From Acetobacter musti (GTDB taxonomy: Bacteria; Pseudomonadota; Alphaproteobacteria; Acetobacterales; Acetobacteraceae): a stretch of DNA of 64,000 nt. Position numbers and translations under genes: made by a program. Position 1 is the stretch's first letter. Every line of letters starts with the position of its first letter. The notes under the pieces are model-generated. The model was not told the origin of the DNA and ran no database searches. It was given only the letters and a program-made list of their open reading frames with translations. Location of the stretch: positions 62,001 to 126,000 of the forward strand of contig NZ_WOTB01000010.1 in NCBI RefSeq assembly GCF_011516835.1, in the 5' to 3' direction. Shown piece after piece: positions 19,684 to 38,901 of the stretch.

Positions 19684-19699
19684 TGCTAAACCCCCGATG

Positions 19700-21406: not shown

Positions 21407-22326
21407 AGCTCGAGTATTTTGTTGCGGCAGGAGAAGCAGGGTCGATCCGGCACGCCTCGGTAAAACTCTCGATCTCCCAGCCATCTATCTCGACAGCGAT
21501 CAGCCATCTCGAACAGGAGCTGGGCGTCCAGCTCTTTGTCCGCCACCACGCGCAGGGCCTCTCCCTCACCCCCGCCGGACACAAGCTCATTGCGGAAGCG
21601 AAGCGTGTTATCGGGATGGCCGAGGGGCTCTATGCCGCCGCCGCCGAAGCCACGGACCAGGTGCGCGGCCGTCTGGCCGTCGGCTCGATGGTCACGCTCG
21701 CCCCGATGATCATGCCCGAACTCGTGCACGGCTTCCTGTCGACCTATCCGGCAACGGAAATCCGCCAGTTCGAGGCCGATCACGAATGGCTTCTCGACCG
21801 GCTGAAAAGAGCCGAAATCGACATCGCCATCACCTACGATCTTCAGACTCCGGAAGGCGTCAGCTTCTCCCCGCTGGCAAGCCTCGCGCCCCACGCGCTC
21901 GTCTGTGAATCCCACCCCCTCGCCGGACGCGACGAAGTCTCGCTGAGCGAACTCGCCAGCGAACCCCTGATCCTGCTCGACCTGCCCATCAGCCGGGAAT
22001 ATTTCTACACACTCTTCTTCGCGGAAGGGCTCGAACCCCGGATCTACTCGCGCTCGACCCACCAGGAAGTCGTGCGCACCATGGTCGCCAACGGCTACGG
22101 CTACACACTCGCCAACGTCAGACCCCGCTCGGACATCGCGCTTGACGGCAGACGGGTCGTCAGAATCCGGCTCACCGGCGAACACCGGCCAATGGTGATC
22201 GGCACGGCGACCCTGGCCAACGTAAGAAAATCACGGCTTCTGGAAAGCTTTGAGGAACACTGCAGAACGTTCATCTCCGATGCCTCCATTCCAGGCATGG
22301 CCGGCCCCGATTTCCAGACCGGCTGA
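21388..22326 (+). CDS. LysR-family transcriptional regulator
   Basis: A 312-residue LysR protein. Residues 1-60 form the helix-turn-helix (YTLRQLEYFVAAGEAGSIRH, SISQPSISTAISHLEQELG), followed by the effector domain. The subgroup resembles regulators of nitrogen- and aromatic-compound catabolism, but the effector cannot be read from sequence. It is convergent with the polyamine-type ABC operon (stop 22345), only 18 bases apart with no visible terminator between. A LysR-box-like dyad at 26505-26520 in the divergent promoter of that operon is a candidate target. Confidence 0.9.
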   Translation: MRYTLRQLEYFVAAGEAGSIRHASVKLSISQPSISTAISHLEQELGVQLFVRHHAQGLSLTPAGHKLIAEAKRVIGMAEGLYAAAAEATDQVRGRLAVGSMVTLAPMIMPELVHGFLSTYPATEIRQFEADHEWLLDRLKRAEIDIAITYDLQTPEGVSFSPLASLAPHALVCESHPLAGRDEVSLSELASEPLILLDLPISREYFYTLFFAEGLEPRIYSRSTHQEVVRTMVANGYGYTLANVRPRSDIALDGRRVVRIRLTGEHRPMVIGTATLANVRKSRLLESFEEHCRTFISDASIPGMAGPDFQTG

Positions 22327-24159: not shown

Positions 24160-25239
24160 TTATTCAAGCATGAACTCTTCGAAACGCTCGGCAACCCACC
24201 CGGTATTTTCTCCCCACCATGCCGCATCGAATTTCGTCAGTCCTTTGAAATTTTCCGGCGCGGTCGGTAAAACCGCCGCACGCTCCGGCGCGAGATAGCT
24301 GAACGCCCGCCTGTTGGTGGGACCGTTCGCGATATGGCGGGCATATTCCGCCTGACGGTCAGCCCGCGCGCAGTAGCGGACAAACGCCCGCGCAATCCCG
24401 GCGCGCGGACAGCCCGTCGGGATGCACCACCCGTCAGTCACATACAGACCGTTCCAGACCAGCGTGACCGGCGCCCCCGCGCTCACCGCCGCCTGGGCGC
24501 GCGACGACCACGTATCGGACAGATCCACCTCGTCGCTCTCAAGCAGAAGCGTATTCTGCGCGCCGCTCGACCACCAGATCGCAACATGATCGCGCAGCCG
24601 GGCCAGCGAGGAAAACGCCCTGTCCACATCCAGCGGATACAGCCTGTCCGGCGGAACGCCATCCGCCAGCAGCGCCAGTTCCAGCGTCGCCGCAGGCGAC
24701 CTGCACAGACTGCGCCGCCCCGGAAAGCGCCCGACATCCCAGAACTCCGGCCAGGAAGAAGGCCCTCCCTTCGGAAAACTCGCCGTCTGCCACGCCATCA
24801 TCACCGCATAAACGGAAAAACCGAGCCAGACATCACTGAACATTCCAGGCAGCAGATCCGCCGTATCGGCAGGAGTCAGATGCAGAGGCTCGAAATACCG
24901 CCCGTCATGCTGCAGACGGGCGACATGCTCCGTGTTCAGCATGCACAGGTCCCAGATATAGGAGCGCGTCTCCACCATCAGCCTGAACTGCGTCACCGGA
25001 TCAGCCGCATGCGGCACCGCAATGACCCGAATGCCGGTCTCCTTCTCGAACGGTTCGTAAAACGCCCGCCGCATCGCCGCCGAAGGCTCAGCCCCCACAT
25101 CCGCGATGGTCAGCGCCGAAACACCCTCCGCCCGCGCCCGCCGCGCCGCCGCCATCAGCCCGCAGGCGCCGCTCCCGGCCAGCACGGACCGTCGCGTCAG
25201 CAGCGTCGGAAAGGTCTGCCCCATACGCCCCGATGTCAT
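24160..25239 (-). CDS. ABC transporter solute-binding protein, polyamine (PotD) type
   Basis: A 359-residue exported binding protein. The N-terminus TRRSVLAGSGACGLMAAARRARA is a Tat-type signal. Family landmarks are FYEPFEKETGIRVIAVPHA, then DLCMLNTEHVARLQHDGR and VTLVWNGLYVTDGWCIPTG near the C-terminus. The start codon overlaps the ATPase stop by four bases (ATGA), so expression is coupled. The ligand is unknown. The acidic cluster that fixes amines in PotD could not be placed with confidence, so a related ligand such as an opine or an amino acid derivative is possible. Confidence 0.88.
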   Translation of the reverse strand: MTSGRMGQTFPTLLTRRSVLAGSGACGLMAAARRARAEGVSALTIADVGAEPSAAMRRAFYEPFEKETGIRVIAVPHAADPVTQFRLMVETRSYIWDLCMLNTEHVARLQHDGRYFEPLHLTPADTADLLPGMFSDVWLGFSVYAVMMAWQTASFPKGGPSSWPEFWDVGRFPGRRSLCRSPAATLELALLADGVPPDRLYPLDVDRAFSSLARLRDHVAIWWSSGAQNTLLLESDEVDLSDTWSSRAQAAVSAGAPVTLVWNGLYVTDGWCIPTGCPRAGIARAFVRYCARADRQAEYARHIANGPTNRRAFSYLAPERAAVLPTAPENFKGLTKFDAAWWGENTGWVAERFEEFMLE

Positions 25240-26387
25240 GCCTCCTGATCCGGAATGAAATGCCCGTCACCCGCATTCCACCGCACTGTCGCGGCCTGAC
25301 CGGCCGACAGCGCCAGAGTCGCCGGAACCTGAACAACGATTTTCTGATCGTTCCCCAGCCGGAACCGGACCCTCTGCTCCGCACCCCCGAACGTAACGTC
25401 CTCAACCACACCCCTCAGACCGGTTTCATCATCGGTATGAAGCCGCAGATGCTCAGGACGCAGCACCAGCGCCCCCTTCGTGCCGGCGGATACCGATGAA
25501 CCATCCGGAAGCGGCAGATCCCCGACCGGCGTGGCCAGCCGCCCTCCGGGCCGCACCACCCCCTGAAGGATCGTCGACGTGCCAATGAAATCCGCGGCGA
25601 ATACCGTCCGGGGCGTATCGTAAAGCGCCCTCGGCGTATCGAACTGCTCAACCCGCCCCCGATTCATCAGACAGATTCTGTCCGACATCGTCATGGCTTC
25701 TTCCTGGTCATGCGTCACAAAGATAAAGGTCGTTCCGGTCTCGCGATGAATCCGGCGGACCTCATCCTGCAGCACCAGACGACGATTCCGGTCCAGGGCG
25801 GAAAAGGATTCATCCATCAGGATCAGCGACGGCTGATACACCAGACAGCGGGCCAGCGCGACGCGCTGCTGCTGACCGCCGGACAGTTCCGACGGCATCC
25901 GCTCCGTATAACCGGTCAGACCGACCATTCCGAGCGCCGCCTCCATCCTGCGCAGAATGACGGACCTCTCCAGACCCCGGATTCTGAGCGGAAAAGCAAC
26001 GTTTTCCCCCACCGTCAGATGCGGAAACAGCGCGTAATTCTGAAACACCACCCCGATGTCCCGCTCCGCCGCCGACGCCTGCGTCCGGTCAGCGCCATCG
26101 ATGAAGAGACGGCCGCCACTGGGCGGCACCAGACCGCAGATCAGCTGCAGGAGCGTGCTTTTGCCAGACCCCGACGGCCCCAGCAGGGTCACGAACTCAC
26201 CGGTGAGGACATCCATGGTCACGCGTTCCAGCGCCACCGCGTCACCATAAGCTTTATACAGACCCCGGATACTCAGTTTGAACGGCGAAGAAACTGCTGT
26301 CATGGAATTCTGCAGGCGGTCATTCATCGGACTTTCGCTGGCTGGCCCTGGAGATGTCCGGGAGTCTGACACATTCGCCCCGATCAT
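25236..26387 (-). CDS. ABC transporter ATP-binding protein, polyamine (PotA) type
   Basis: A 383-residue ABC ATPase with Walker A GPSGSGKST, signature LSGGQQQR, Walker B LILMDESFSALD and the H-loop VTHDQEEA. A C-terminal TOBE (OB-fold) domain, about residues 300-380, is typical of PotA/FbpC proteins. The start at 26387 has AGAGGGG upstream and leaves an unusual 34-residue polar N-terminal extension before the ATPase fold; a start at 26303 would remove most of it. It is the first gene of the leftward transporter operon and is divergent from the NtaA/DszA-type monooxygenase. Confidence 0.92.
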   Translation of the reverse strand: MIGANVSDSRTSPGPASESPMNDRLQNSMTAVSSPFKLSIRGLYKAYGDAVALERVTMDVLTGEFVTLLGPSGSGKSTLLQLICGLVPPSGGRLFIDGADRTQASAAERDIGVVFQNYALFPHLTVGENVAFPLRIRGLERSVILRRMEAALGMVGLTGYTERMPSELSGGQQQRVALARCLVYQPSLILMDESFSALDRNRRLVLQDEVRRIHRETGTTFIFVTHDQEEAMTMSDRICLMNRGRVEQFDTPRALYDTPRTVFAADFIGTSTILQGVVRPGGRLATPVGDLPLPDGSSVSAGTKGALVLRPEHLRLHTDDETGLRGVVEDVTFGGAEQRVRFRLGNDQKIVVQVPATLALSAGQAATVRWNAGDGHFIPDQEA

Positions 26388-26716: not shown

Positions 26717-28054
26717 ATGGAACAGACCCGGAAAAGAATGGTTCTCGGCGGACTCTTCGAAGCCAACGGATATCACTCCGCAGCATGGCTGCTTCCGTCG
26801 GCCCAGGACGACGCGGCGACAGATGTCGACTATTTCCGCAACATCATCCAGGAAGCGGAAGCCGGAAAACTGGATTTTTTCTTTCTGGCCGACACACCCG
26901 CCGCCCGCACCGAGAACCTGGATTTCTGGACGCGCTCGCCGCTTTACATGAACATGATGGAGCCCATCACGCTCCTCTCCGCGCTCGCCGGCTCCACCAG
27001 CCATATCGGCCTCGGCGCAACCGCCTCAACCAGCTTCTACGAACCCTATAATATCGCCCGCCTTTTCGGCTCGCTCGACCACATCAGCCACGGTCGCGCC
27101 GCCTGGAACGTGGTGACGAGCGCCAATGATTACGCAGCCCGGAATTTCGGGCTCTCCGCCCTGCCGCCACACGATAAACGCTACGAAAAAGCCGCCGAAT
27201 GCCTCGAAGTCGTTCAGGCGCTGTGGGACACATGGGAAGACGACGCGTTTATTTTCGACAAGGCGAACGCCCGGATGTTCGATCCGGAAAAATTCCATAT
27301 CCTTGACCACCAGGGCGAATTTTTCCGCGTTTATGGCGGCCTGAACATGCGACGCTCCCGTCAGGGCCAGCCCGTCATTTTCCAGGCCGGCGCGTCCGAA
27401 GCCGGCAAGGAATTCGCCGCGAGAACCGCCGAGGTCGTCTTCGGAACCGGCTCCTGCCTCGAACAGGCACAGGCCTTCTACCGCGACCTCAAGGGACGCA
27501 TGACCCGCTACGGCCGCTCCACGGACGCACTGAAAGTGCTGTCGGGCGTGTCGGTCGTCGTCGGCGAAAGCGAGGAGCAGGCCAGAGAAAAATGGGCGCT
27601 GTGGCAGGAGACCGTGCCGATCGAGGTCGGCCTGATGTATCTGAAAACCGATCTCGAAACCGATCTCTCCGACCTCCCGCTCGACGAGCCCGTCCCGGAG
27701 CATCGGATTCCGGACCACTCGAATTTCCATCAGATCTATTTCAATGAAATCGTCGGCCTGATCCGCGAAGGCCTCACCCTGCGCGAAATCTGCCGGAAAT
27801 ATAACCGCAGCAAGGTCATTTTCTACGGAACGCCTTCCGGTATCGCCGATCAGATGGAACACTGGGTCAGCGAAGGCGGCAGCGACGGATTCATGATGGC
27901 CCTTCCGGTTCTCCCGGAAAGCCTCACGGACATCACGCGCAAAGTCGTTCCGGAACTGCAGCGCCGCGGCCTGTTCAGAACCGAATATGAAGGCACGACA
28001 CTCCGTGAAAATCTCGGCCTTGCCCGCCCCCGGAACAGACACGTCACAGCATAG
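26717..28054 (+). CDS. LLM-class flavin-dependent monooxygenase, NtaA/SnaA/DszA family
   Basis: A 445-residue FMNH2-dependent monooxygenase of the group that includes nitrilotriacetate (NtaA) and dibenzothiophene-sulfone (DszA) monooxygenases. These split C-N or C-S bonds. Landmarks are FLADTPAA, the barrel segment HISHGRAAWNVVTSANDYAARNFG cut into its parts (SHGRAAWNVVTS, AARNFG), and PVIFQAGASEAGKEFAARTAE. Length fits the family. It is divergent from the polyamine-type importer and is followed by a GhrA-like reductase after 108 bases. The flavin reductase at 38380 or 7089 could supply FMNH2. Confidence 0.92.
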   Translation: MEQTRKRMVLGGLFEANGYHSAAWLLPSAQDDAATDVDYFRNIIQEAEAGKLDFFFLADTPAARTENLDFWTRSPLYMNMMEPITLLSALAGSTSHIGLGATASTSFYEPYNIARLFGSLDHISHGRAAWNVVTSANDYAARNFGLSALPPHDKRYEKAAECLEVVQALWDTWEDDAFIFDKANARMFDPEKFHILDHQGEFFRVYGGLNMRRSRQGQPVIFQAGASEAGKEFAARTAEVVFGTGSCLEQAQAFYRDLKGRMTRYGRSTDALKVLSGVSVVVGESEEQAREKWALWQETVPIEVGLMYLKTDLETDLSDLPLDEPVPEHRIPDHSNFHQIYFNEIVGLIREGLTLREICRKYNRSKVIFYGTPSGIADQMEHWVSEGGSDGFMMALPVLPESLTDITRKVVPELQRRGLFRTEYEGTTLRENLGLARPRNRHVTA

Positions 28055-28162
28055 AGCGTCGGCCGGGCCGGCCTGACGGCAGACAATCCGGAGATCAGGC
28101 CGGCCACGGTCTCCGCAGCCTGTCCGGCCCTGTGGCCGGCCACATGGAAAGGGGGAGACGAA

Positions 28163-29089
28163 ATGTCTTTTGTGCTCAGGCTGGATCAGACCCGTGAACT
28201 GCACTGGCAGACCGTCTTCCGCCAGCAGATGCCGGAAATGGCCTTCCATTTCTGGCCCGAATGCGGCAACCCGGAAGACGTCGAATACCTGGCGCTGTGG
28301 AAGCCCGACCCTGAAATCTTCGCACAGTTCCCGAACCTGAAACTGGTGTTCTCCCTGGGCGCCGGCGTCGATCAGTTCGACCTCAGCACCCTGCCTCCCC
28401 AGGTCAGCCTCGTCAGAATGATCGAACCCGCCCTCACGGCCGGCATGGTCGAATACGTCACCGCCTTCGTCCTCGCCATTCAGCGCGACCTCCCGCTTTA
28501 CAGACAGCAGCAGACAGAGCGCCTGTGGCAGGCCCACCCCGAACGCCCGGCCGCCGCAACCCGCGTCGGCATCATGGGCATGGGCACGCTGGGAACACCC
28601 TGCGCAAAAGCCCTCCTCTCCCTCGGCTTCGCGGTCCAGGGGTGGAACAGAAGCCCCCGCGACATCGCAGACGTCCCCGTATTCGCCGGCGACACGGAAC
28701 TGGACGCCTTCCTCGCCTCCACGGACATCCTCGTCTGCCTTCTGCCCCTGACCGACGCGACCCGCGGGCTGTTCCGCGCATCGCTGTTCTCGAAGCTCCC
28801 GAAAGGCGCCAGCTTCATCAACGCCGGCCGGGGCGGACACGTCGTCACCGACGATCTGCTCGGCGCCCTCGACAGCGGCCAGCTGCGCTGGGCCGTCCTG
28901 GACGTCACCAGCCCCGAACCTCTGCCCGCCACCTCACCCCTGTGGGAACACCCCTGGATCATCCTCACACCCCATATCGCAAGCAACACAAACGCACAGA
29001 GCGGCGCGGAGAGCGTCATCGCCAATATCAGACGCTTTCAGGCCGGCCAGCCTCCCGCCGGCCTGGTCGATCGCCGGAAAGCCTATTAG
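28163..29089 (+). CDS. Glyoxylate/hydroxypyruvate reductase, GhrA type
   Basis: A 308-residue D-2-hydroxyacid dehydrogenase of the GhrA group. The NAD(P) motif is GIMGMGTLG, near residue 136. Catalytic residues expected for the family are visible: Arg in NAGRGGHVV, Glu in SPEPLP and His in TPHIASN. GhrA enzymes reduce glyoxylate and hydroxypyruvate. NtaA-type monooxygenases release glyoxylate from N-carboxymethyl compounds, so this gene right after the monooxygenase could dispose of that product; this is inference. A GGAAAGGGGGAG ribosome site precedes the ATG. Repeat A copy 3 follows. Confidence 0.88.
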   Translation: MSFVLRLDQTRELHWQTVFRQQMPEMAFHFWPECGNPEDVEYLALWKPDPEIFAQFPNLKLVFSLGAGVDQFDLSTLPPQVSLVRMIEPALTAGMVEYVTAFVLAIQRDLPLYRQQQTERLWQAHPERPAAATRVGIMGMGTLGTPCAKALLSLGFAVQGWNRSPRDIADVPVFAGDTELDAFLASTDILVCLLPLTDATRGLFRASLFSKLPKGASFINAGRGGHVVTDDLLGALDSGQLRWAVLDVTSPEPLPATSPLWEHPWIILTPHIASNTNAQSGAESVIANIRRFQAGQPPAGLVDRRKAY

Positions 29090-29108
29090 AAACCCTTGAT
29101 AAGAAACA

Positions 29109-29196
29109 ATAAAAGTTTTTGGGTGCCGCCTTTTTTCAAAAAGGCGGCGTCTTCTGAAGCTTTTTGAAAAAAGCTTCACCAAAAACTTTTTATAAT
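29109..29196 (+). repeat. Repeat A, copy 3
   Basis: A nearly perfect copy: AAAGTTTTTGG, GCCGCC/GGCGGC stem, GAAGCTT/AAGCTTC stem, CCAAAAACTTT. The conserved tail TTCACAGGCAGGCTTCTGAA follows. It separates the GhrA-like gene from the CocE-like gene on the same strand. Confidence 0.92.
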
Positions 29197-29292
29197 TAAC
29201 CAAAGACTTCACAGGCAGGCTTCTGAAACAGTCTCTTTAAGCAGCCCCGCCCGGAAAAGGCGCCAGAGTTTTCCGCAAAAAAGGAACAGGTC

Positions 29293-31395
29293 ATGTCATC
29301 ACAGAAGGCAGCAAAAAAGTTTCCAACACCATGCTCCCTTCCGACAGAAGGCCTGTCCCCGCAATCAGTGGCAACGCCGCGCCACCACCCGGAGCGGCAT
29401 AACCCGCCCGGACGCCAGGAAACCCCTGATGCTTCCGGCCGGAAATTCCCCTCCGTCCTGACCAGAACATCCATTTTCACAGCCTGTCTCACCGGATTTT
29501 CCTTCTGCCTGGCAACCGCGCCCGCCCTTGCGGACAGCACGTGGCCCTCCCAGACCGGACGGGGCAGCTGCAAAGTCAGTAAAAAAACCGATGTCCCGGC
29601 CAGAATGCGGGACGGCGTCGTTCTGCGCGCCGATATCTACACACCGGAAACCTCCGGCAAGGTCCCGGTCATTCTCATGCGCACGCAGTACGGCAAGGAC
29701 GCCGCCCAGATGCAGCCCTCCCGCTTCCAGTCCCCGGACTGGTTCGCCTCGCATTGCTACATCGTGGTGATCCAGGACATCCGCGGTCAGGGAAAATCCG
29801 ACGGAACCTTCTACGAATATCGTTACGACCGCAATGACGGATACGATACGGTCGAATGGGCCGCCCGCCTGCCAGGCTCAAACGGAAAAGTCGGCATGTA
29901 CGGCTCCTCCTATGTCGGCGCCACACAATGGCTCGCCGCCACCGCAACCCCGCCATCACTCGCCGCGATCGCCCCGTCCAACACAGGCTCCGATTACGGA
30001 GACGGCTGGACATACGAAGACGGCGCGTTCCGCCTCGCCTTCATCGAACCCTGGATGATGGCCGACATCGCCTCCTCCGCCGCCGCGAACCGCGGAGACA
30101 CGAAACTGGCGAAGGAACTCGCGGAGGCCGGCAGAAACCCCGCGAAATGGATGACCTACACGCCCTACACGACATTTCCGCCATTGCGCCCGCAGGACAA
30201 AAAGGTCGCGCCCTATTTCTATGACGCCATCCGCCATCCGGCCTCAGACGAATACTGGAAAGAGTTCGATATAAAATCGCGTTATCACAAGGTGACCGTC
30301 CCCGTCCTCGCATTCGACGGCTGGTACGACGCCTTCCTGAACGGCGCGCTGGAGAACTTCACCGGGATGCAGCGTGAAGGCGGCACTCCCGAAGCGCGCC
30401 GGAACCAGCGCATCGTCATCGGCCCCTGGGATCATATCGGCTGGGGAAGAGAAGCCTCGACAGTCAGCCCCCGCCTGAAAGCCATTGGCCCGGTCGCGAA
30501 CAGCCCCGTCAACGATCTCATGCTGAAATGGTTCGACCACTTCCTGAAAGGTGACAATAACGGCGTCGCAACAGGCCCCCGTATCGATTATTTCACCATG
30601 GGTGAAAACAGGTGGCACACCGCGAACGCCTGGCCGGTCCCGGGCACCAAATGGCAGACCTGGTATCTCGGCAGCCAGCACAGCGCGTCATCCGTCATGG
30701 GCGACGGCGCCCTCACCCCGCTTCCGCCAGGCCAGCATCCGCCAGAGACGCGTCCCCTGCCCACCGGAGACACCGACCCGGCCACCCTGACAGCGAAAAC
30801 CGATGAATTTACCTACAATCCGGACAATCCGGTTCCCAGCGTGGGCGGACATTCCTGCTGCAGCTGGGATTCCGGACCGCAGGGCCAGTACGATCAGTCA
30901 TCGGTCGAGCAGAGGCCGGATATCCTCGTTTTCACCAGTTCTCCCCTCACGACACCCCTCAATGTAACTGGCCCGATCAGTGTCGAACTGTATGCATCGA
31001 CAAGTGCGACCGACACCGACTTCACCGCGAAACTGGTCGATGTCGCTCCGGACGGCACGGCCGTGAACCTGAACAATGGCATCCAGGCCACACGCTTCCG
31101 CAATTCATTAAGTCATCCCGAACCCGTCCATCCGGGCGAGATATACAAATACAGAATCAAGATCTGGCCAGCCAGCAATCTGTTTATGCCCGGACACCGC
31201 ATAAGACTGGAAATCTCATCGAGCGATTATCCTCAGTTCGCGCCAAATCCCAACACAGGAGACGTATTCGGAACATCGGACCGCCATCAGAAAGCGCTTC
31301 AGAAAATCTGGCACGATCGGGATCATCCCTCCGCTCTCATCCTCCCTGTCATCGACACACCCTCCGACAGCATGGATAAAGCCCCCGCACTTTAA
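29293..31395 (+). CDS. CocE/NonD-family hydrolase (peptidase S15 type), exported
   Basis: A 700-residue acyl/amide hydrolase. The alpha/beta domain contains the nucleophile in GMYGSSYVGATQW, an acid residue in FDGWYDAFLNG and the histidine in GPWDHIGWG. A C-terminal jelly-roll domain follows (about 540-690; GPISVELYASTSATDTDFTA). The hydrophobic segment FTACLTGFSFCLATAPALA at about residues 60-78 is a signal peptide preceded by an unusually long 55-residue n-region. The ATG at 29293 has AAGGAA upstream, and no better internal start was seen. Family members cleave X-Pro dipeptides, cocaine-like esters or glutaryl amides. Confidence 0.88.
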   Translation: MSSQKAAKKFPTPCSLPTEGLSPQSVATPRHHPERHNPPGRQETPDASGRKFPSVLTRTSIFTACLTGFSFCLATAPALADSTWPSQTGRGSCKVSKKTDVPARMRDGVVLRADIYTPETSGKVPVILMRTQYGKDAAQMQPSRFQSPDWFASHCYIVVIQDIRGQGKSDGTFYEYRYDRNDGYDTVEWAARLPGSNGKVGMYGSSYVGATQWLAATATPPSLAAIAPSNTGSDYGDGWTYEDGAFRLAFIEPWMMADIASSAAANRGDTKLAKELAEAGRNPAKWMTYTPYTTFPPLRPQDKKVAPYFYDAIRHPASDEYWKEFDIKSRYHKVTVPVLAFDGWYDAFLNGALENFTGMQREGGTPEARRNQRIVIGPWDHIGWGREASTVSPRLKAIGPVANSPVNDLMLKWFDHFLKGDNNGVATGPRIDYFTMGENRWHTANAWPVPGTKWQTWYLGSQHSASSVMGDGALTPLPPGQHPPETRPLPTGDTDPATLTAKTDEFTYNPDNPVPSVGGHSCCSWDSGPQGQYDQSSVEQRPDILVFTSSPLTTPLNVTGPISVELYASTSATDTDFTAKLVDVAPDGTAVNLNNGIQATRFRNSLSHPEPVHPGEIYKYRIKIWPASNLFMPGHRIRLEISSSDYPQFAPNPNTGDVFGTSDRHQKALQKIWHDRDHPSALILPVIDTPSDSMDKAPAL

Positions 31396-31421
31396 CGTCT
31401 CTTCCAAAGCCGGTCTGTTCC

Positions 31422-31462
31422 GTTTCCCTTCAGGGCTTCACCACCGGCCCCAAAAGGGAAAC
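31422..31462. other. Inverted repeat after the CocE-like gene
   Basis: GTTTCCCTT (31422-31430) and AAGGGAAAC (31454-31462) form a 9-bp stem with a 23-base loop, just 3' of the CocE-like gene. There is no T-run, so a terminator role is uncertain. Confidence 0.3.
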
Positions 31463-31637
31463 AGTTCCGCCGATCCCGGTCCGGCCAGGCTCTCCATTCC
31501 GGAAGACATTTCCGCCCGCGCCGGAGGCACCGCCACATTTCTCCTATGTCGCAAACAGAAGAAAACGAAGCATATTGTTCATTGCCAACAAACTGATGCT
31601 ATGCAGATATGATCATATCTTTTCTGATGGTGAAAAC

Positions 31638-32069
31638 ATGACAGCCGATATTCATTCAGCCGTGACTCACCGGCGTATCCGCCCCTTCAATACGAAACAG
31701 ACCTATCCGGAACAGAATCTCGACAACGATCTCTGTCAGGCGGTCGTCGCGGGGAACACGATCTATCTCCGTGGCCAGGTTCCGCAGGATCTCGACACAC
31801 GCGAGAATGTCGGCGTCGGCGATCCGGAAAAGCAGGCCGAAAAAGTCGCTGAAAATATAAAACTTCTTCTGGATGAATGTGACGCCGAACTGCGCCATAT
31901 CTGTAAAGTCACCGTGTATCTGACCGATATCAGACATCGCGAGGCCGTCTACCGGACACTCGGCAGGCATCTGCGCGGCGTCTTTCCCGTGTTCACCGGC
32001 CTCGTCGTCGTGGCTCTCGCCCGCCCCGAATGGCTGGTGGAAGTCGACGTCATCGCGGTGAAAGACTGA
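31638..32069 (+). CDS. RidA-fold (YjgF/YER057c/UK114) protein
   Basis: A 143-residue protein of the RidA fold. RidA enzymes hydrolyse reactive imines/enamines made by amine-oxidising or PLP enzymes. The usual landmarks are present (VVAGNTIYLRGQVPQDL, LLDECDAELRHICKVTVYLTDI, VEVDVIAV). The arginine of the canonical PARS motif is not: the segment reads FPVFTGLVVVAL. It belongs to a divergent Rid subgroup that may not have imine deaminase activity. ATG 31638 is preferred to an in-frame TTG at 31575. It sits among an amine oxidase, an M20 deacylase and a flavin monooxygenase. Confidence 0.88.
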   Translation: MTADIHSAVTHRRIRPFNTKQTYPEQNLDNDLCQAVVAGNTIYLRGQVPQDLDTRENVGVGDPEKQAEKVAENIKLLLDECDAELRHICKVTVYLTDIRHREAVYRTLGRHLRGVFPVFTGLVVVALARPEWLVEVDVIAVKD

Positions 32070-32144
32070 TCCGGCACACCGAAAAATCACAGTGTCCGCA
32101 GGCACAGAAACCGTTTCAGATGCCCGCTTGCAAAACCTCTGGTA

Positions 32145-32234
32145 AATTATAAAAAGTTTTTAGGCGCCGCCTTTTTTCAAAAAGGCCGCGTCTTCTGAAG
32201 CTTTTTGAAAAAGCTTCATCAAAAACTTCTTTAT
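32145..32234 (+). repeat. Repeat A, copy 4 (core flipped relative to flanks)
   Basis: The core runs in the forward sense (GCCGCC stem, then GAAGCTT stem). The flank normally found on the right (AAACCTCTGGTAAATTATAAA) is on the left, and the head-type flank (CTTTATCAAAG) is on the right. It sits between the convergent RidA and DUF1028 genes. Confidence 0.85.
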
Positions 32235-32356
32235 CAAAGATTGCCACGAAGTGTTCTTTGATTCCGGCTGAAGCAGGCAGATAACCGGAACGAAAAAAGA
32301 TAACAGCATCAGTCTGCTATAAAATTCCGCCCCTTTATGACTGAAAACACCCTCTG

Positions 32357-32413
32357 ACAAACCGGGATCAAAGGGACCGCGTCCCTTTGTGGGGCCCGGG
32401 GCAAAGCCCGGGA
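32357..32413 (+). repeat. Repeat B, copy 3
   Basis: Begins ACAAACCGGGATCAAAGGG and has the stems AAGGGAC/GTCCCTT and CCCGGGGC/GCCCGGG. It lies about 120 bases after repeat A copy 4; the two fill most of the 400-base convergent gap. Confidence 0.88.
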
Positions 32414-32473
32414 AAACCATCGTTCCATCCCCCGTCTCTTCAGAGCATCCAGCGCCCCGCCTTCCATCCGAGA

Positions 32474-33151
32474 TTACTCGTCCCCCGGAACACCATAAGA
32501 CGGCGCGGATAACGGATTCAGGCAACGGGTCACATAATCGTTCATCTGAGGCTGCCAGACTTTCCACAGTTCCGCGAGACGCCCGACGGGCTCATCATCC
32601 CAGTCAACACGCAGATCCACAAGCGGCCAGCTCTGCCGGTCGACAACGATCATACCCGCTGACCGGACCGGCCCCGCCTCACCACCCGCTTCCAGCCCGC
32701 CCAGCATGGCAATGACAAGCCGCTCTCCAAGATCCAGCGATTCATCAGCCTCCAGAAACGCTTTCCCAACCGCTTCCGGAACAGACTGACTGGCCAGCAT
32801 ATTCCCGGCGGAAACAACGTTCTTTTCTATAAACGTCGCATGACAGCCAAGCGTGCGCTCGCCGGACCAGACCGCACCGTCTCCACAGGCATCCAGAATC
32901 GCGAGCTGCCGGAATTCGGAAAAATCCGCGTTCCGGACAAGAATGTCACGACACTCCGCCGCACTGGCTCCCCTCTCCAGAAGATCCAGCCCGGCAGGGC
33001 CGAGCCGCGGATCGGTAACATTCTGGGACGCCACCACACCCACACCCGCCCGGGCAAAAGCACACCGGCTGGTCACCGCCGGAGACGAGGAAGAAACCGC
33101 CATTCCGAACTGCCCCGTGCGGGCACACCGTGCTATAACTGAAAACGTCAT
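32474..33151 (-). CDS. DUF1028 family protein (Ntn-hydrolase-like fold)
   Basis: A 225-residue DUF1028 protein. The N-terminal TFSVIARCARTGQFGMAVSS motif and the segment GVGVVASQNVTDPRLGP are diagnostic. Family members are structurally related to Ntn-hydrolases, but the reaction is unknown. In many proteobacteria this family is encoded beside RidA-like and M20 peptidase-like genes, as here. The start of the M20 deacylase (34324) to its stop (33188) lies 36 bases upstream in the same direction, so the two are probably one transcript. Hydrolysis of an amide or peptide-like intermediate is a reasonable guess. Confidence 0.9.
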   Translation of the reverse strand: MTFSVIARCARTGQFGMAVSSSSPAVTSRCAFARAGVGVVASQNVTDPRLGPAGLDLLERGASAAECRDILVRNADFSEFRQLAILDACGDGAVWSGERTLGCHATFIEKNVVSAGNMLASQSVPEAVGKAFLEADESLDLGERLVIAMLGGLEAGGEAGPVRSAGMIVVDRQSWPLVDLRVDWDDEPVGRLAELWKVWQPQMNDYVTRCLNPLSAPSYGVPGDE

Positions 33152-33187
33152 GATTACCCTTCCGACGGGAAATTGAAAAAACCGGTA

Positions 33188-34324
33188 TCAGCGGCAGAGC
33201 CGGTCGAGCACACCCTCCAGAAACCGGTCGCCCTGCAAAAGCTCTTCACGCGTGATGTACTCATCCGCCTTATGCGCCCGCCCGATCGAACCCGGCCCGC
33301 AGACGACACACGCCAGACTAAGCTGCTCCTCAAACAAGCCCGCCTCCGTCCCGAAATTAATGACATCCGTTTCATTTCTTCCGGTTTCATGCAGAACAAG
33401 AGTGCAGATTTCAGTATTCCGGCTGCTGTTCAGCCCCGGATAGGCATTCTCGACCTCAATTAGAATTTCACCACCGCCCACAGAGGATATGACAGAACGG
33501 GACGCTTCCCGCAGCCGTTCCAGATACCCCGCACCGTCCTGCCCGGGCAGAAGCCGCATTTCAGCCATCACCGAACAATGCTCCGGAACGATATTGAGCG
33601 CCGCCCCGCCCTCAATCAGTCCGGCCTGAACAGTCGAAAACGGAACCGTAAACCGCGTGTCATGCGTCTCCGTATCCCGAATATACGTCTGCAGACGCCC
33701 CAGTTCCTGAACCATGCCGGCAGCCAGACTGATGGCATTGATCCCCTCAAACGGACTGGCCGAATGAGCGGCCCGCCCGGTACAGCGTATCCGGAACGAA
33801 ATCTTGCCCTTATGAGCCGTCGCAACACGCATCCCTGTCGGCTCGCCGACAATGCACCCGCCGGCCTCCAGCCCGTTCTCTTTCAGATCCCGCAACAGAG
33901 AGCGCACACCCAGACAACCCAGCTCCTCATCATACGAAATCGCAAGATGAAGAGGCCGCCGCAACGTCCGCGCCGAAGCTTTCGCCGCCGCGGTCAGCAT
34001 ACAGGCAAGAAAGCCCTTCATATCACTCGACCCGCGACCGTAAAGCCGGTCCTCCTGCCCGCTCAGCGTGAAAGGGTCCGTGGACCAGTTCTGACCAGCC
34101 ACCGGCACGACATCGGAATGGGCCGAAAGCACGATCCCGCCCGGACCATCCGGCCCGAGCGAGGCGAACAGACTGAACGCGTCCGGGCGATCTCCCGCGA
34201 CACGCCGCACGCGCGCACCGATCCCGGCCAGAAACTCTTCGATCCAGCCGATGATATCTCCGTTTGGCGTACCGCAGATACTTGGGAAACCAATCAGCGT
34301 CCTGAGAATATCCTCAGTTGACAT
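33188..34324 (-). CDS. M20-family deacylase, ArgE (acetylornithine deacetylase)-like
   Basis: A 378-residue zinc amidohydrolase of the M20/ArgE family. The first metal motif is LSAHSDVVPV (His, Asp), followed by LYGRGSSDMKG (bridging Asp), EELGCLG (catalytic Glu) and a C-terminal histidine region. A dimerisation insert lies at about residues 175-290. It removes N-acyl groups from amino acids or related amines. It is probably not the housekeeping ArgE because it sits in a catabolic cluster with DUF1028, RidA and an Ldh-type dehydrogenase, and no other arginine biosynthesis gene is near. Confidence 0.85.
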   Translation of the reverse strand: MSTEDILRTLIGFPSICGTPNGDIIGWIEEFLAGIGARVRRVAGDRPDAFSLFASLGPDGPGGIVLSAHSDVVPVAGQNWSTDPFTLSGQEDRLYGRGSSDMKGFLACMLTAAAKASARTLRRPLHLAISYDEELGCLGVRSLLRDLKENGLEAGGCIVGEPTGMRVATAHKGKISFRIRCTGRAAHSASPFEGINAISLAAGMVQELGRLQTYIRDTETHDTRFTVPFSTVQAGLIEGGAALNIVPEHCSVMAEMRLLPGQDGAGYLERLREASRSVISSVGGGEILIEVENAYPGLNSSRNTEICTLVLHETGRNETDVINFGTEAGLFEEQLSLACVVCGPGSIGRAHKADEYITREELLQGDRFLEGVLDRLCR

Positions 34325-34571
34325 CGTCTTTTCTGTCTCCGGAAGGGCTCCGCCGGCAGGACGGCACTGACCGGTATTTTATGCGACACCCGGATGACGA
34401 GTTCAACCCGGACAGAGCCTTATTCACGAACACGAAACAGCTTTTTTGATTCCATCCTCCAGACAACCCCCAGTCACCATGTCAGCGGCGCCCCCCCGGC
34501 CCCGATTGCACGCTGCGAGGAATACCATTACAGATTTCTGAAAGACATTCCCTGTTCGGAACGGAAAACAC

Positions 34572-35594
34572 ATGCCAGATGTAAGATATTTTCCGGAAAA
34601 TGTTCTGGAACCGGTCATCCGGGAGTTTCTGTGCCAGGCAGGAGCCTCGCCGGACGATTCCGCACAGACGACAAAAGCCCTCCTGCATGCGTCCCGCACG
34701 GGAGTCGACAGCCACGGCGTCCGCCTCGCGGTCTACTACGCGCGCCTGCTGCGATCCGGACGGCTGAACGCATCACCTCACCGTCAGGTCAGACACACCG
34801 GCCCGGCAACAGCCCTGCTCGACGCCGATCACGGTCTCGCCCACCCGGCTTCCTACCTTGCGATGAACGAAGCCATCGCCCTGGCCAGAAACGCCGGAAT
34901 CGGCGCGGTCGGCGTCATGAACTCAACCCATTTCGGCGCCGCCGGAGCCTATGCGCTGGAAGCCGCATATCAGAACATGATCGGCATCAGCACCTGCAAC
35001 GCGGAATCACTGGTCAGTCTTTTCCAGGGCAGCATCCCGTTTCACGGAACAAACCCGATCGCAATGGCGGCGCCGGTTCCGGACAGCAACCCCTGGCTGC
35101 TCGACATGGCAACCTCCTCCATCCCGTTCAATCGCGTGCAGCTTTACCGTTCCCTCGGAATAACGCTGCCGGAAAACGTAGCCCTCGACAGCGACGGCCA
35201 GCCAACACGGGACCCGCAGAAAGCACGCTTTCTCGAACCCCTGGGCGGTCCGGAATTCGGCTTCAAAGGCGCGGCCCTCGCAGGTGTCGTCACGCTCCTG
35301 TCAGCAATCCTCACCGGAGCAACATGCGATCCCGACATCCCGTCAGGACCAGACGCAAAAGGTCCGTCCAATATCGGTCATTTCTTTATCGCCCTCGATC
35401 CCGGCCGTTTCGTCGGCCAGACCGGATATCGCACCGCGATCACCCATTACCTCGCCGCACTACGCGGTTCTCCGGCCAGAAATCCGGACCAGCGGATCAT
35501 GGCGCCGGGCGACCGGGAATGGGCCGAGACCGAAAAACGCGCGCGACAGGGCATACCCGTCGATCCCGACACCACAGCCGCGCTCGGTCTCTGA
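34572..35594 (+). CDS. Ldh-family (malate/L-lactate/ureidoglycolate) dehydrogenase
   Basis: A 340-residue NAD(P)-dependent dehydrogenase of the L-sulfolactate/ureidoglycolate/malate family, unrelated to Rossmann-type MDH. Landmarks are RTGVDSHGVRL at residues 43-53, STHFGAAGAYAL with the catalytic histidine (about 119), PNPIAMAAP-like (TNPIAMAAPV) and FGFKGAALA. The family includes ComC-type (S)-sulfolactate dehydrogenases, which is notable beside the sulfur genes, but substrate cannot be read from sequence. It is divergent from the M20 deacylase gene. An overlapping longer frame from 34394 is a shadow. Confidence 0.88.
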   Translation: MPDVRYFPENVLEPVIREFLCQAGASPDDSAQTTKALLHASRTGVDSHGVRLAVYYARLLRSGRLNASPHRQVRHTGPATALLDADHGLAHPASYLAMNEAIALARNAGIGAVGVMNSTHFGAAGAYALEAAYQNMIGISTCNAESLVSLFQGSIPFHGTNPIAMAAPVPDSNPWLLDMATSSIPFNRVQLYRSLGITLPENVALDSDGQPTRDPQKARFLEPLGGPEFGFKGAALAGVVTLLSAILTGATCDPDIPSGPDAKGPSNIGHFFIALDPGRFVGQTGYRTAITHYLAALRGSPARNPDQRIMAPGDREWAETEKRARQGIPVDPDTTAALGL

Positions 35595-35639
35595 CTTCAC
35601 ACAGAACAAACGATCCGTGACCCGCCTGCCACAAACCAG

Positions 35640-37238
35640 TCAGCCAGACTGAACAATTCTCCGATGCAGCCGGGTCACGGCGTCGGCCGCGGACAGGATC
35701 GCTCCCTCCTGCCAGCCGCAGAACCAGGAAACATGTTCGCCCGCCAGAATGATGCGGTTATCGATCCCGCACAGAGTCCGGTAATGCGCCGCCCGCGCCT
35801 CCTGCGACCAGAGCGCGCAGCATCCGAGAGTCCACGGCATCCGGCTCCACGCGACGGCAACACCCCCGCGATACTCCTTCCTGTAGCCGGTATGAATTCT
35901 TTCTCCCTGAGCAAGCGCATTTTCGATACGCTCCGCCGGTGTCATGCCGGCGAAATCATAGGCTGCGGGCTCGTCAAACATATACCCGCCAAGCAGCACG
36001 GCAGGACCCGGGGAGAGAAAACCGCCGGCCGGATAGGAGATCTGTGTAATCGGCTGATCCGTAAAGGTAATACCGCCATAAATCTGATCATCCTCCTCCC
36101 AGAAACGCCGCCGGAATTCGAGCCCGATTTTCACCGATGACAGATAGGGCACCGCCGAAATCGCGGCGCGCATCGGCGCACTCACCTGAATATCGAGCTG
36201 GGACAGAATGGAAAGCGGTATCGTACAGACACAGTAATCCGCATCGACAGACTGAATGTTTCCAGGATGGGACGTGTCCTCATAGATGACCGTCACCCCC
36301 TTCTCCCCCTGATGAACCGCTTTCACCATGGCGTTGAGCGTCATAAGGTCACCGGTGCGCCGATAAAACGCCCTGCCGATCTGATCCATCCCGCCCACCG
36401 GCTGAAACAGCGTCTCCTGCATTTCGAGATCATTGAAAAACGCGATATTCTTCCAGAGCTGCGCATCAAGAATCTCGCTTTTGGCATAGGGAGCGGACGG
36501 AACCGGCGCACCGTCGGGACCACCTCCCTGTGGCCGGGAAAACCCCCTGCGAAAGGAACTCCGCTCCCCCTTCACATATTCCCCCGAAGGCGTCAGACCG
36601 CCCCACTCAGTCATGGCGGCCCGAAACTGAGATCGCTCCGGATCGGTGTCAAATAGCCCCTCAGTCCTGAGATCGGCCGCCTTCGCCAGCGTCTCCGCCG
36701 TATATCCGTAAAAATCCGAAGCATATTCGCGATAACGAACCGGCCTTCCACCAAAAGCCTTCGATGAATGCAGCCACGCATTCTGATTGAACTGAACAAA
36801 AGGCTCCAGCTGAACGCCAAAAGCCCTGCAGTAATGCAGAATCCCCTGATGATGATACGGGATTCTCCAGGGACCAGGATTAAAGTAATTCCCTGCCGCA
36901 AAACTGACGTTCTGCGTCGCCCCGCCCAGTTCATGAAGCGTATCGCCGCCACGCAGTGAAATATTCCGGCCGCCTGGACGATTCTGGAACTCCAGAATAC
37001 GAACCTGATACCCGGCTTTGCGCAGTTCGAAGGCCGACAGCATTCCGGCAAGACCGCCGCCAAGAACAAGAATTTTCGTTCCGGACCGACCGCCCGAAAG
37101 CCCCGGCTCGCCCCTGAAATCCGTAGTCCGGGCGCCGGCGCTCATCGTCCGCCCGAACGCCGCCCCAAAAGCGCTCATTCCCATCCCCGCAAGCGTTCTG
37201 CGCCGCGTCGTCCCCCGAAAATCCTCCGACGATGCCAT
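35640..37238 (-). CDS. Flavin amine oxidase (L-amino-acid/monoamine oxidase family), Tat-exported
   Basis: A 532-residue FAD-dependent amine oxidase. The N-terminus TRRRTLAGMGMSAFGAAFG is a Tat signal. The FAD motif is LVLGGGLAGMLSAFELRKAG (about residues 52-71), followed by EFQNRPGGRN. The C-terminal FAD contact is ILAGEHVSWFCGWQEGAILS. Such enzymes turn amines or amino acids into imines with release of H2O2. The RidA-like protein at 31638 could handle the imine. It is convergent with the Ldh-type gene (45 bases apart) and lies downstream of the class II aldolase gene, separated by a terminator. Confidence 0.9.
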   Translation of the reverse strand: MASSEDFRGTTRRRTLAGMGMSAFGAAFGRTMSAGARTTDFRGEPGLSGGRSGTKILVLGGGLAGMLSAFELRKAGYQVRILEFQNRPGGRNISLRGGDTLHELGGATQNVSFAAGNYFNPGPWRIPYHHQGILHYCRAFGVQLEPFVQFNQNAWLHSSKAFGGRPVRYREYASDFYGYTAETLAKAADLRTEGLFDTDPERSQFRAAMTEWGGLTPSGEYVKGERSSFRRGFSRPQGGGPDGAPVPSAPYAKSEILDAQLWKNIAFFNDLEMQETLFQPVGGMDQIGRAFYRRTGDLMTLNAMVKAVHQGEKGVTVIYEDTSHPGNIQSVDADYCVCTIPLSILSQLDIQVSAPMRAAISAVPYLSSVKIGLEFRRRFWEEDDQIYGGITFTDQPITQISYPAGGFLSPGPAVLLGGYMFDEPAAYDFAGMTPAERIENALAQGERIHTGYRKEYRGGVAVAWSRMPWTLGCCALWSQEARAAHYRTLCGIDNRIILAGEHVSWFCGWQEGAILSAADAVTRLHRRIVQSG

Positions 37239-37349
37239 ATGTAATCAGGCCTTTTCAGGATCAGAAGCCGAACAGCCACTCCGGCCACCGCGAGCAGAAC
37301 TGAGCAACCCGCCAGGACAAAGCCACGCATTCCCGACGTCCGCACAAAC

Positions 37350-37381
37350 AAAAAATGCGGACACCACACCGGTGTCCGCAC
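37350..37381 (-). terminator. Rho-independent terminator after class II aldolase gene
   Basis: A 10-bp perfect stem TGCGGACACC / GGTGTCCGCA with a 5-base loop is followed on the minus strand by TTTTTTG. It starts 11 bases after the aldolase stop (37393) and so separates that gene from the amine oxidase gene. Confidence 0.85.
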
Positions 37382-37392
37382 CATTTTGCCGG

Positions 37393-38235
37393 TCAGTCGC
37401 GATAATCAGGCTCTTCCCTGTCGAGAATGAGCTTCATTTCCTCAAAATGGCGGATCGAGAAATCCGTTATTCCCTCCCAGTCACGCGCGGTTTTTTCCGC
37501 CACGTCATCCGGAAGAACGGAAAGAGGCTGCCCGGTCGAATACGCATTGACGAGAATCTGGCAGGCCCGCTCGAGGGTATACATATCGTCGAACGCCTCA
37601 CCAACGGTCTGAGCCACAACCATCACGCCGTGATTGCCCATCATCAGACGGGTTTTGTCGCCCATCAGCCCCGCCAGACGCGCGCCCTCATTCTCGCTGT
37701 CCGCCATGCCGCCATACAGCCTGTCCAGAGCCACGCGGCGAAAATAGCGCGCCGTGTTCTGTTCGATCGGAATAATCTCAGGATTCTGCAATGTCGCGAT
37801 GGTGGTCGCATAAACGGGATGCAGATGCATCGCCACCCGCGCCCGCGGAACGATCCTGTGCAGCTGGCCATGAATAGCCCAGGCGGTCGGATCGAGATCC
37901 CGGCTCGCGGCGTCTCCCGGTTCGTTCACATCGACAAGAACCAGATCGCTGGCCCTGATCCGTGAAAAATGCCGCCATTTCGGATTGATGAGAAAGCGGG
38001 AACCATCCTCCGACACCGCCGCGCTGAAATGATTGGCGACAGCCTCATGAAAGCCCAGCCGGGCCGCGATGCGGAACGCCGCGGCAAGATCTGTCCGCAC
38101 TGAAAGTTCGCAGCTTTCGCTCAATCTGTCCTCCCCGGCATTCTCACGCAGTCCCGGACAAAGCGTAGGCGTGACATTCCCGATGCGTAAAGAGCAGTTT
38201 TTCCTGGTCTCTGTATAGTTTTTTCCATCAGACAT
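37393..38235 (-). CDS. Class II aldolase/adducin-fold protein
   Basis: A 280-residue class II aldolase/adducin family protein, the second in the window. Zinc ligands are likely the histidines of AMHLHPVYA (about residues 138-140) and of MGNHGVMVV (about 205). It differs clearly from the copy at 2316, so the two are not a recent duplication. A 35-residue polar N-terminus precedes the fold. It is divergent from the flavin reductase gene (38380) and followed by a strong terminator, so it is probably a single-gene transcript. The substrate is unknown. Confidence 0.87.
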   Translation of the reverse strand: MSDGKNYTETRKNCSLRIGNVTPTLCPGLRENAGEDRLSESCELSVRTDLAAAFRIAARLGFHEAVANHFSAAVSEDGSRFLINPKWRHFSRIRASDLVLVDVNEPGDAASRDLDPTAWAIHGQLHRIVPRARVAMHLHPVYATTIATLQNPEIIPIEQNTARYFRRVALDRLYGGMADSENEGARLAGLMGDKTRLMMGNHGVMVVAQTVGEAFDDMYTLERACQILVNAYSTGQPLSVLPDDVAEKTARDWEGITDFSIRHFEEMKLILDREEPDYRD

Positions 38236-38379
38236 CCCCCCGGACGCCGCCGCACTGTACCCAACTGCGTAAAAAAATCGGAAGCAGAAAATCCACAGGA
38301 ATAATTTGCATTACCGCCTGTCTGTGGCGTCAGAATAAACATACCGAACAAGCAATGACCGGTAAGGACCGATATTTTT

Positions 38380-38901
38380 ATGGACGCAATGCCCGCTCCC
38401 GTCGACATCCCGCACGAAACACCGGAGCGATTCATATCGGCAATGGCAAAAGCCGCAACCGGCGTCTCCGTCGTGGCGACCTGGGGCGTCGCGGGACGTG
38501 CCGCGCGCACAATCAGCGCCTTTGCATCCATCTCCGCCGAACCCCCTGTCGTGATGGTCTCCGTCAGAGACGCCTCCCCCCTCACCCGCCAGATCTCCGC
38601 AAACGGCATGTTCAGCCTCAGCATTCTCTCCCCGGAACAACGCAGGGTCGCCGAACTGTTCGGCAGCTCCTCATCCGCCGAAGCCTCACTCGACGCCGAA
38701 GCCGTAAACTGGAAGACAGATCCCGATCACAGCGCCCTGTATCTCGAAAACAGCGCCTCCTCATTTCTGTGCGACGTATCAGAAGAAATCGTGGTCGGAA
38801 CACACCACCTGTTTTTCGGCCTCGTCAGACGCGCCATCGAAGGAAATGACAAAGCCCTTATCTACCACGCCCGCGCCTATGCCGCCCCTCTGAAACTGTA
38901 A
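38380..38901 (+). CDS. Flavin reductase domain protein (FMN reductase)
   Basis: A 173-residue flavin reductase with the fold start RFISAMAKAATGVSVVATWG and the motif TISAFASISAEPPVVMVSVR. It probably supplies FMNH2 to a two-component monooxygenase, most likely the NtaA/DszA-type enzyme at 26717, or to other LLM enzymes in the cell. It differs from the reductase at 7089. It is divergent from the second aldolase gene; repeat A copy 5 follows the stop. Confidence 0.88.
   Translation: MDAMPAPVDIPHETPERFISAMAKAATGVSVVATWGVAGRAARTISAFASISAEPPVVMVSVRDASPLTRQISANGMFSLSILSPEQRRVAELFGSSSSAEASLDAEAVNWKTDPDHSALYLENSASSFLCDVSEEIVVGTHHLFFGLVRRAIEGNDKALIYHARAYAAPLKL

Follow-up and report, generated by a model that had tools for sequence, protein, structure and literature searches.

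A 64,000-nucleotide stretch of contig NZ_WOTB01000010.1 of Acetobacter musti (positions 62,001 to 126,000, forward strand; hereafter the window) appears to carry a catabolic island for imidazole compounds, in which a hin-type gene core acting on imidazole-4-acetate is joined to a feeder composed of a luciferase-like monooxygenase (LLM) and an ATP-binding cassette (ABC) importer. We put the probability of this reading at about 0.74. Homology, gene order and recurrence support both what the core is and its linkage to the LLM and importer, while each reaction in A. musti, the role of the feeder and its substrate are what we infer. The initial annotation, made from the sequence alone, had described the genes at 26717–38901 as an uncharacterised system of oxidative C–N/C–S cleavage beside a dedicated importer. 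Profile searches place all ten families that it named where it had put them, and the importer is found at 22345–26387 on the minus strand. The association is real and conserved, but its boundary and its novelty were misjudged: the core matches hinFLHG, which lead from imidazole-4-acetate to aspartate, and the genes for an FAD/NAD(P) monooxygenase (FMO) and a LysR regulator, both central, fall outside 26717–38901. The likely ring-attacking enzyme is the FMO encoded at 20033, not the LLM.

A probable hin-type core

According to the passages of PMC8231116 that concern these genes, hinFLHG (PA5393 to PA5390) convert imidazole-4-acetate to aspartate in the histamine catabolism of Pseudomonas aeruginosa and Pseudomonas putida U, and HinK, a LysR protein encoded beside hinDAC, responds to imidazole-4-acetate. 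In parts of PMC6467879, where three Brevibacterium strains are reported to grow on histamine, HinF is given as an FAD monooxygenase (EC 1.14.13.5), HinL as an enamine deaminase, HinH as an amidase, HinG as EC 3.5.1.8 and HinI as an aspartate ammonia-lyase. Like the hinFLHG and HinK set described in those passages of PMC8231116, the window has an FAD monooxygenase, a LysR regulator, a Rid protein, a hydrolase of the EC 3.5.1.8 type and one more amidase. An imidazole-to-aspartate route was considered because aspartate ammonia-lyase and HutD genes lie near several of the cores described below, and the core of the window is very probably the known hin-type set, as judged from homology and gene order.

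In three genomes (G484, G480 and G557) the genes stand as FMO-RidA-DUF1028-M20, the same order as in hinFLHG, and the window proteins are 61% (FMO), 53–61% (Rid) and 50–52% (DUF1028) identical to theirs. HinH is equated with the DUF1028 protein because of this order, F-L-H-G. The best PDB match of the window LysR protein is 3fzv/6m5f (Table 1), the next entry reaching 94.5 bits. Among 19 genomes with DUF1028, 16 encode a protein related to 3fzv (E ≤ 1e-60), and in seven of them it is 80–89% identical. In G484, G480 and G557 a LysR gene whose product is 89% identical to 3fzv is located apart from the core, beside aldehyde dehydrogenase (ALDH), class III aminotransferase (AT) and solute-binding protein (SBP) homologs, a setting that resembles the reported arrangement of hinK, hinD, hinC and PA0222.

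The window differs from the hin genes in that the parts of its core lie on both strands and are separated by other genes, and in that LLM, importer, aldolase and GhrA-like genes are present. No AT, ALDH, GMC or NCS1 homolog was found in the window at the thresholds set, so that counterparts of HinC (AT) and HinD (ALDH) are absent from the cassette. The closest GMC and ALDH proteins of the source genome (41% and 42% identity) are the products of adjacent genes on a different contig; the aminotransferase was not searched genome-wide. An aspartate ammonia-lyase-like protein (41%) is also present in that genome. Two other assignments were rejected. The MSMEG_0569 flavoprotein family (TIGR04046) gives the FMO its best NCBIfam match, but membership was rejected because the score of 346 bits is under the cut-off of 498. 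Pathways for pyrrole-2-carboxylate, thiamine/hydroxymethylpyrimidine, pyridoxine, trigonelline and homarine were weighed because GMC, NCS1, HpaB and Rieske genes neighbor the cores; no matching gene set was found for them in the literature searched, and the hin genes explain the core better.

The Rid, DUF1028 and M20 proteins

At the position of the catalytic arginine (Arg105 of TdcF), the 109 Rid proteins compared have Ser (84), Phe (22) or Cys (3) and none has Arg; the window protein has Phe. In the sections of PMC4433059 that treat these groups, this Arg is held to be required for imine hydrolysis by RidA, and the roles of Rid groups without it were called unknown in 2015. The Rid proteins of the core, having no Arg at this position, are therefore unlikely to be ordinary imine hydrolases.

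Pfam lists DUF1028 as a family of unknown function, and the term gave no match in the open-access literature searched. The structure model of the window protein (predicted local distance difference test score of 95.1) has its top match in 2imh, a solved DUF1028 protein (Z 31.4), followed by HslV at Z 12.3 and by beta subunits of the proteasome at Z 11–12. Residue 2 of the model is often the first to be aligned, to residue 1 of HslV or the proteasome beta chains, and Thr2 is invariant in 115 of 115 proteins. Because of this proteasome-like fold and the conserved Thr2, we propose that DUF1028 proteins may function as N-terminal-threonine amidohydrolases.

In the M20 protein, H69, D101, E133 and H351 are identical in 87 of 87 sequences. 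The window M20 protein also exceeds the NCBIfam cut-off for acetylornithine deacetylase (367 vs 297.7 bits) and most of its core-linked relatives are annotated as argE, a label that is probably a misnaming of HinG-type enzymes.

Distribution of the core

DUF1028 was detected in 24 of the 61 genomes searched, the source genome included. Among 20 DUF1028 loci of 8.7–20 kb, 17 from the genus of the source organism and 3 from its class, 18 contain Rid, 16 M20, 16 FMO and 14 LysR genes; ALDH, NCS1 permease and GMC oxidoreductase genes are frequent in these loci, and a GhrA-like gene (36%) occurs in one. A wider set of 116 loci combines the best 80 loci, of at least 584, from named genomes with 16 opened plasmid loci, some of them picked because an LLM is present, and 20 further genome loci. 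The plasmid observations refer to the records listed (e.g. 30 and 45 of 316). The identity thresholds for counts in the set are our own (e.g. at least 35% for GhrA, CocE, Ldh, amine oxidase and flavin reductase), one locus is below the DUF1028 threshold, and 102 loci span at least 12 kb, absence in the shorter ones meaning little.

Within the best 80 of at least 584 loci, Rid is present in 75, LysR in 60, M20 in 59, an FMO matching either reference in 52 and HpaB in 14; the corresponding numbers for all 116 are 109, 89, 88, 77 and 23, with both monooxygenases in 2 loci and either one in 98. GMC with ALDH genes occur in 24 of the 116, AT with ALDH in 9, HutD in 6 and homologs of NCS1-type permeases in 22. 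The core was seen in Acetobacteraceae, rhizobia, Burkholderia, Streptomyces and Bacillus and on Klebsiella plasmids, and Rid, DUF1028 and ArgE-type M20 genes adjoin on plasmids of Aminobacter, Paracoccus, Shinella, Bradyrhizobium, Roseateles, Klebsiella, Pantoea, Burkholderia and Streptomyces. The three genes are neighbors in the window (31575–34324) and in loci L053–L057 and L169–L174, with other genes intervening in L053, L173 and L174. Aspartate ammonia-lyase is annotated near the cores of L053, L173 and L175/L178, and homologs (44–47%) of the TonB-dependent receptor of the window are found near the core in L047, L070, L073 and L096.

Of the 316 plasmid records that match DUF1028, 110 are from Klebsiella. 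In this genus, the conjugative IncFIB plasmid pKP18069-CTX (NZ_CP059891.1, 116183–129490; L169 8562–18672, L177 103–5491) carries RidA, DUF1028, ArgE, FMO and LysR genes, accompanied by GhrA, an alpha-hydroxy acid oxidase, a type II dehydroquinase, a glutathione S-transferase, a quinone oxidoreductase and an ABC importer. HpaB, often together with a flavin reductase, replaces the HinF-type FMO in L053, L054, L065–L067, L070, L164, L236 and L241–L243, and may be an unrelated imidazole-acetate monooxygenase. In the Gram-positive Bacillus badius (L175 8402–18683; L178 7784–10871), where HpaB, RidA and DUF1028 are present, an FAD synthetase gene separates HpaB from RidA and a histone-deacetylase-like gene comes after DUF1028, with a Zn-dependent hydrolase and aspartate ammonia-lyase 10 kb downstream; no ArgE is annotated in the stretches examined.

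The monooxygenase and importer module

The Rid, DUF1028, M20, LLM, class II aldolase and importer genes recur together, as the initial annotation had supposed. A neighborhood that is not conserved was among the grounds on which it would have given up its proposal; the neighborhood is conserved. In Rhizobium, Neorhizobium, Thioclava and Bradyrhizobium (L164, L167, L165 and L135), the LLM, three ABC parts, Rid and DUF1028 genes are grouped in a span of about 12 kb, with identities to the window of 57–62% (LLM), 40–47% (permease), 48–52% (SBP) and 50–55% (ATPase). Their arrangement varies. Rhizobium sp. ACO-34A (L164) has M20, 2-hydroxyacid dehydrogenase, permease, LLM, SBP, ATPase, LysR, DUF1028, RidA, flavin reductase and HpaB genes; Thioclava has ATPase, SBP, LLM, permease, class II aldolase, FMO, RidA, DUF1028, LysR and ArgE; and Neorhizobium plasmid pNCHU2750c has DUF1028, RidA, FMO, LysR, ArgE, ATPase, SBP, permease and LLM. 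In Bradyrhizobium sp. BRP22 the series ATPase-SBP-LLM-permease-LysR-aldolase-FMO-RidA-DUF1028 is encoded on a single strand. No AT, ALDH or GMC homolog was found at the set thresholds in these four loci, so that the feeders usual for the core may be replaced here by the LLM together with the importer.

Four of the best five LLM plasmid records were opened; in three the LLM is encoded beside the core and in one it is not. The tree places the five linked LLMs in one 13-row set (9 distinct sequences) with support of 100/99. They do not form an exclusive clade: the set also holds L166, L168 and two genes of genome G078, and the label of core linkage needs three changes on the tree. G078 contains an LLM gene pair (56%) with a HutD-like gene near and no core nearby. 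As to the importer, homologs of 44–48% on three opened plasmids adjoin CoA ligase and enoyl-CoA hydratase genes, which hints at aromatic acids as substrates and settles nothing.

Proposed pathway

We hypothesize that the ABC importer takes up an imidazole compound, which the LLM would convert to imidazole-acetate, with reduced flavin perhaps supplied by the flavin reductase at 38380. The FMO would oxidize imidazole-4-acetate, and the Rid and DUF1028 proteins between them would turn the opened imidazolone into formimino-aspartate and then N-formyl-aspartate, which the M20 enzyme would cleave to aspartate and formate, while the LysR protein would sense imidazole-acetate. The LLM and importer would thus stand in for the AT/ALDH or GMC/ALDH feeders of other cores. 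An N-acyl compound, the substrate put forward in the initial annotation, would accordingly appear here at the last step only, as N-formyl-aspartate, and not as the overall substrate. RcaE and NtaA, members of the same family as the LLM, cleave C–N bonds. The weakest link is the reaction of the LLM itself: oxidative N-dealkylation of an N-substituted imidazole-acetate is our guess and no firmer, because the relatives of the LLM include both N-dealkylating and C–S-cleaving enzymes.

A bolder proposal, doubtful as a whole, is that the LLM and importer form a new entry, the LLM freeing imidazole-4-acetate by N-dealkylation from N-substituted compounds such as tele-methylimidazole-acetate, a main end product of mammalian histamine breakdown, or imidazole-acetate riboside; that DUF1028 is HinH, an N-terminal-threonine hydrolase freed simply by removal of the start methionine; that the Arg-less Rid protein acts on an amidine; and that HpaB and a flavin reductase provide imidazole-acetate oxidation of a second, unrelated kind.

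In the main reading, what is new is the feeder made of LLM and importer, the use of HpaB in place of the FMO, and the roles assigned to DUF1028 and Rid, which give DUF1028 and the Arg-less Rid group a concrete, testable function. The core, taken as one for an imidazole compound, is widespread, plasmids included, and is combined with feeder genes of several kinds and with two monooxygenases unrelated to each other; since the feeders vary, the substrates can be guessed from the neighbors.

Alternative explanations

Several observations weigh against a hin-type core with an LLM-importer feeder. The mapping onto the hin genes draws on order, family, regulator and synteny, and not on direct alignment to the named Hin proteins; PDB 3fzv/6m5f is an entry that we take to be HinK, backed solely by synteny in G484, G480 and G557, and these three genomes are presumably pseudomonads. 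The window M20 protein is just 40–41% identical to theirs. In the window the FMO and LysR genes lie 9 kb from the Rid/DUF1028/M20 group (10 kb from FMO to Rid), the core is split over two strands, and no common promoter motif emerged, the best 15-mer scoring 45 vs 42–44 in four shuffles. The best 80 of at least 584 loci include many from Mesorhizobium and are not independent. The link between feeder and core is also loose in places: the 20.7-kb stretch of L135 (Bradyrhizobium sp. BRP22) contains no M20 gene, an importer is found near an LLM-less core in Pantoea (L170), and close LLM relatives lack a nearby core in L166, another Neorhizobium plasmid, and in L257. Furthermore, sub-threshold ALDHs are annotated 2.3 kb from M20 in L164, together with an alpha-hydroxy-acid oxidase, and in L167 (Neorhizobium) at roughly 12 kb from its LLM gene. 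Because of these ALDHs, the absence of other feeders is a weaker argument, and our confidence is 0.74 and not 0.78.

The unit might instead be the hin core alone (FMO, LysR, Rid, DUF1028 and M20), with the LLM, ABC, GhrA, CocE, Ldh, amine oxidase, aldolase and flavin reductase genes brought in from other cassettes. The 20 DUF1028 loci have no homolog of the LLM, CocE, amine oxidase, Ldh, flavin reductase or aldolase at the settings used, and CocE, Ldh and amine oxidase, which the initial annotation had counted as members, are found in none of the 116 loci at 35% identity or more. This explanation keeps a real share of the probability and is nevertheless unlikely, given the grouping of the LLM and three ABC parts with Rid and DUF1028 in four genera and an aldolase-family gene of 62–75% identity beside the core in five loci (L061, L135, L164, L165 and L229), among them 3 of the 4 LLM loci.

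A distinctly improbable variant keeps the core and makes the LLM a C–S-cleaving enzyme, like YtnJ or DszA, acting on a thio-imidazole such as a product of ergothioneine. YtnJ is indeed the best solved relative of the LLM (353 bits), followed by a nitrilotriacetate monooxygenase entry (342) and dibenzothiophene desulfurization enzyme A (303); however, no sulfur-metabolism gene was recognised among the scanned genes of the cassette, and family membership cannot decide between C–S and C–N cleavage. The S-(2-succino)cysteine or YtnJ-YxeK-type operons are a natural comparison here. They share with the window, besides the YtnJ-like LLM, an M20 enzyme and an ABC importer, whereas no acetyltransferase was recognised among the scanned window genes, and in 88 of 116 loci M20 enzymes of the window type accompany Rid and DUF1028, compared with 4 loci that have the LLM. 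Riboflavin lyase and the nitrilotriacetate and ethylenediaminetetraacetate (EDTA) monooxygenases, which catalyze oxidative C–N cleavage, belong to the same family; the lyase scores 213 bits and the EDTA enzyme 200, both below YtnJ.

It is very unlikely that the same families open the ring of another N-heterocycle (pyridine, pyrimidine or pyrrole) in a Rut-like manner, although NCS1-type permeases lie near the core in the 22 loci mentioned above, the Acetobacter one being weakly CytX-like, and succinate-semialdehyde dehydrogenases are annotated near the core in L055 and L056. The order and kinds of genes fit hinFLHG, and neighboring HutD and aspartate ammonia-lyase genes fit the imidazole-to-aspartate route. 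A logic of flavin monooxygenase, Rid and amidase is real, and with the flavin reductase it is shared with the Rut pyrimidine pathway, but all scores are under the cut-offs: 74 of 498 bits for the LLM against RutA, 29 of 169 for Rid against RutC and 84 of 255 for the reductase against RutF. It is hardly credible that an N-acyl or N-carboxymethyl compound is degraded here by a single uncharacterised pathway in which the LLM cleaves a C–N bond, GhrA removes glyoxylate and Rid acts as imine deaminase. The LLM does belong to the NtaA/DmoA subfamily, and a D-2-hydroxyacid dehydrogenase (32%) is encoded in the LLM cluster of L164 as well; yet the core matches genes of known function, GhrA-like genes lie beside LLM-less cores, and the Arg that the relevant sections of PMC4433059 tie to imine hydrolysis is missing from all 109 Rid proteins.

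Gene layout and neighboring genes

Table 1. Genes of the proposed imidazole-compound island and its surroundings, in window coordinates
Feature	Position	Strand	Basis
TonB-dependent receptor, possible outer-membrane part	17314..19902	-	Profile search
FAD/NAD(P) monooxygenase (FMO), HinF-type, proposed imidazole-acetate monooxygenase	20033..21286	+	Pyr_redox_3; TIGR04046-like
LysR regulator, HinK-type	21388..22326	+	219 bits to PDB 3fzv/6m5f
Fused ABC permease, PotB/PotC/PhnU2-like	22345..24144	-	Profile search
ABC solute-binding protein (SBP)	24160..25239	-	Profile search
ABC ATPase, PotA/PhnT2-like	25236..26387	-	Profile search
NtaA/DmoA-family LLM monooxygenase, proposed feeder enzyme	26717..28054	+	TIGR03860, 506.6 bits, passing the cut-off of 279.7
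GhrA-like 2-hydroxyacid dehydrogenase, possible accessory	28163..29089	+	PRK15469, 212.2 bits, under the cut-off of 403
CocE/NonD hydrolase, probable passenger	29293..31395	+	455 bits, cut-off 66.3
Rid-fold protein, HinL-type	31575..32069	+	Pfam 69 bits; TIGR00004 64 bits, under the cut-off of 106
DUF1028 protein with Ntn-like fold, assigned as HinH-type from gene order	32474..33151	-	210 bits
M20 deacylase, HinG-type, proposed N-formylaspartate amidohydrolase	33188..34324	-	Profile search
Ldh_2 dehydrogenase, passenger or accessory	34572..35594	+	326 bits
Amine oxidase, probable passenger	35640..37238	-	Profile search; twin-arginine-like start judged by eye
Class II aldolase-family protein, accessory	37393..38235	-	Family match excludes about 40 N-terminal residues
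Flavin reductase, possible reduced-flavin source for the LLM	38380..38901	+	Profile search

The importer genes are divergent from the LLM gene, and the Rid protein is likely to start at the ATG at 31638, as judged from shorter relatives. That the 12-kb block forms one operon was ruled out, the strands alternating and several genes being unconserved. A scan of the sequence gave 3 promoter-like sites, with 4.1 expected, and 27 terminator-like sites, with 21.8 expected.

The accessory and passenger genes differ in how often they accompany the core. The aldolase-family gene is present in 11 of the 116 loci. A GhrA-like homolog of at least 35% occurs in 9 loci, none of them with an LLM, and one of 32% in the LLM locus L164; for the flavin reductase there are 4 loci at this threshold, again none with an LLM, and a homolog of 34% in L164. 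Weaker relatives of Ldh_2 are encoded in L100 (30%) and L056 (32%), and the amine oxidase has a 61% paralog on contig C9 of the source genome.

Elsewhere in the window, a possible second catabolic island at 5390–16894 comprises genes for a LysR protein (5390), an NMT1-type SBP (7649), another LLM (13137) and a lipase-like protein (14981). Genes of fatty-acid type are located at 43009–51683 and encode an acyl-CoA ligase, a FadL-type porin, a thiolase, a 3-hydroxyacyl-CoA dehydrogenase and an acyl-CoA dehydrogenase.

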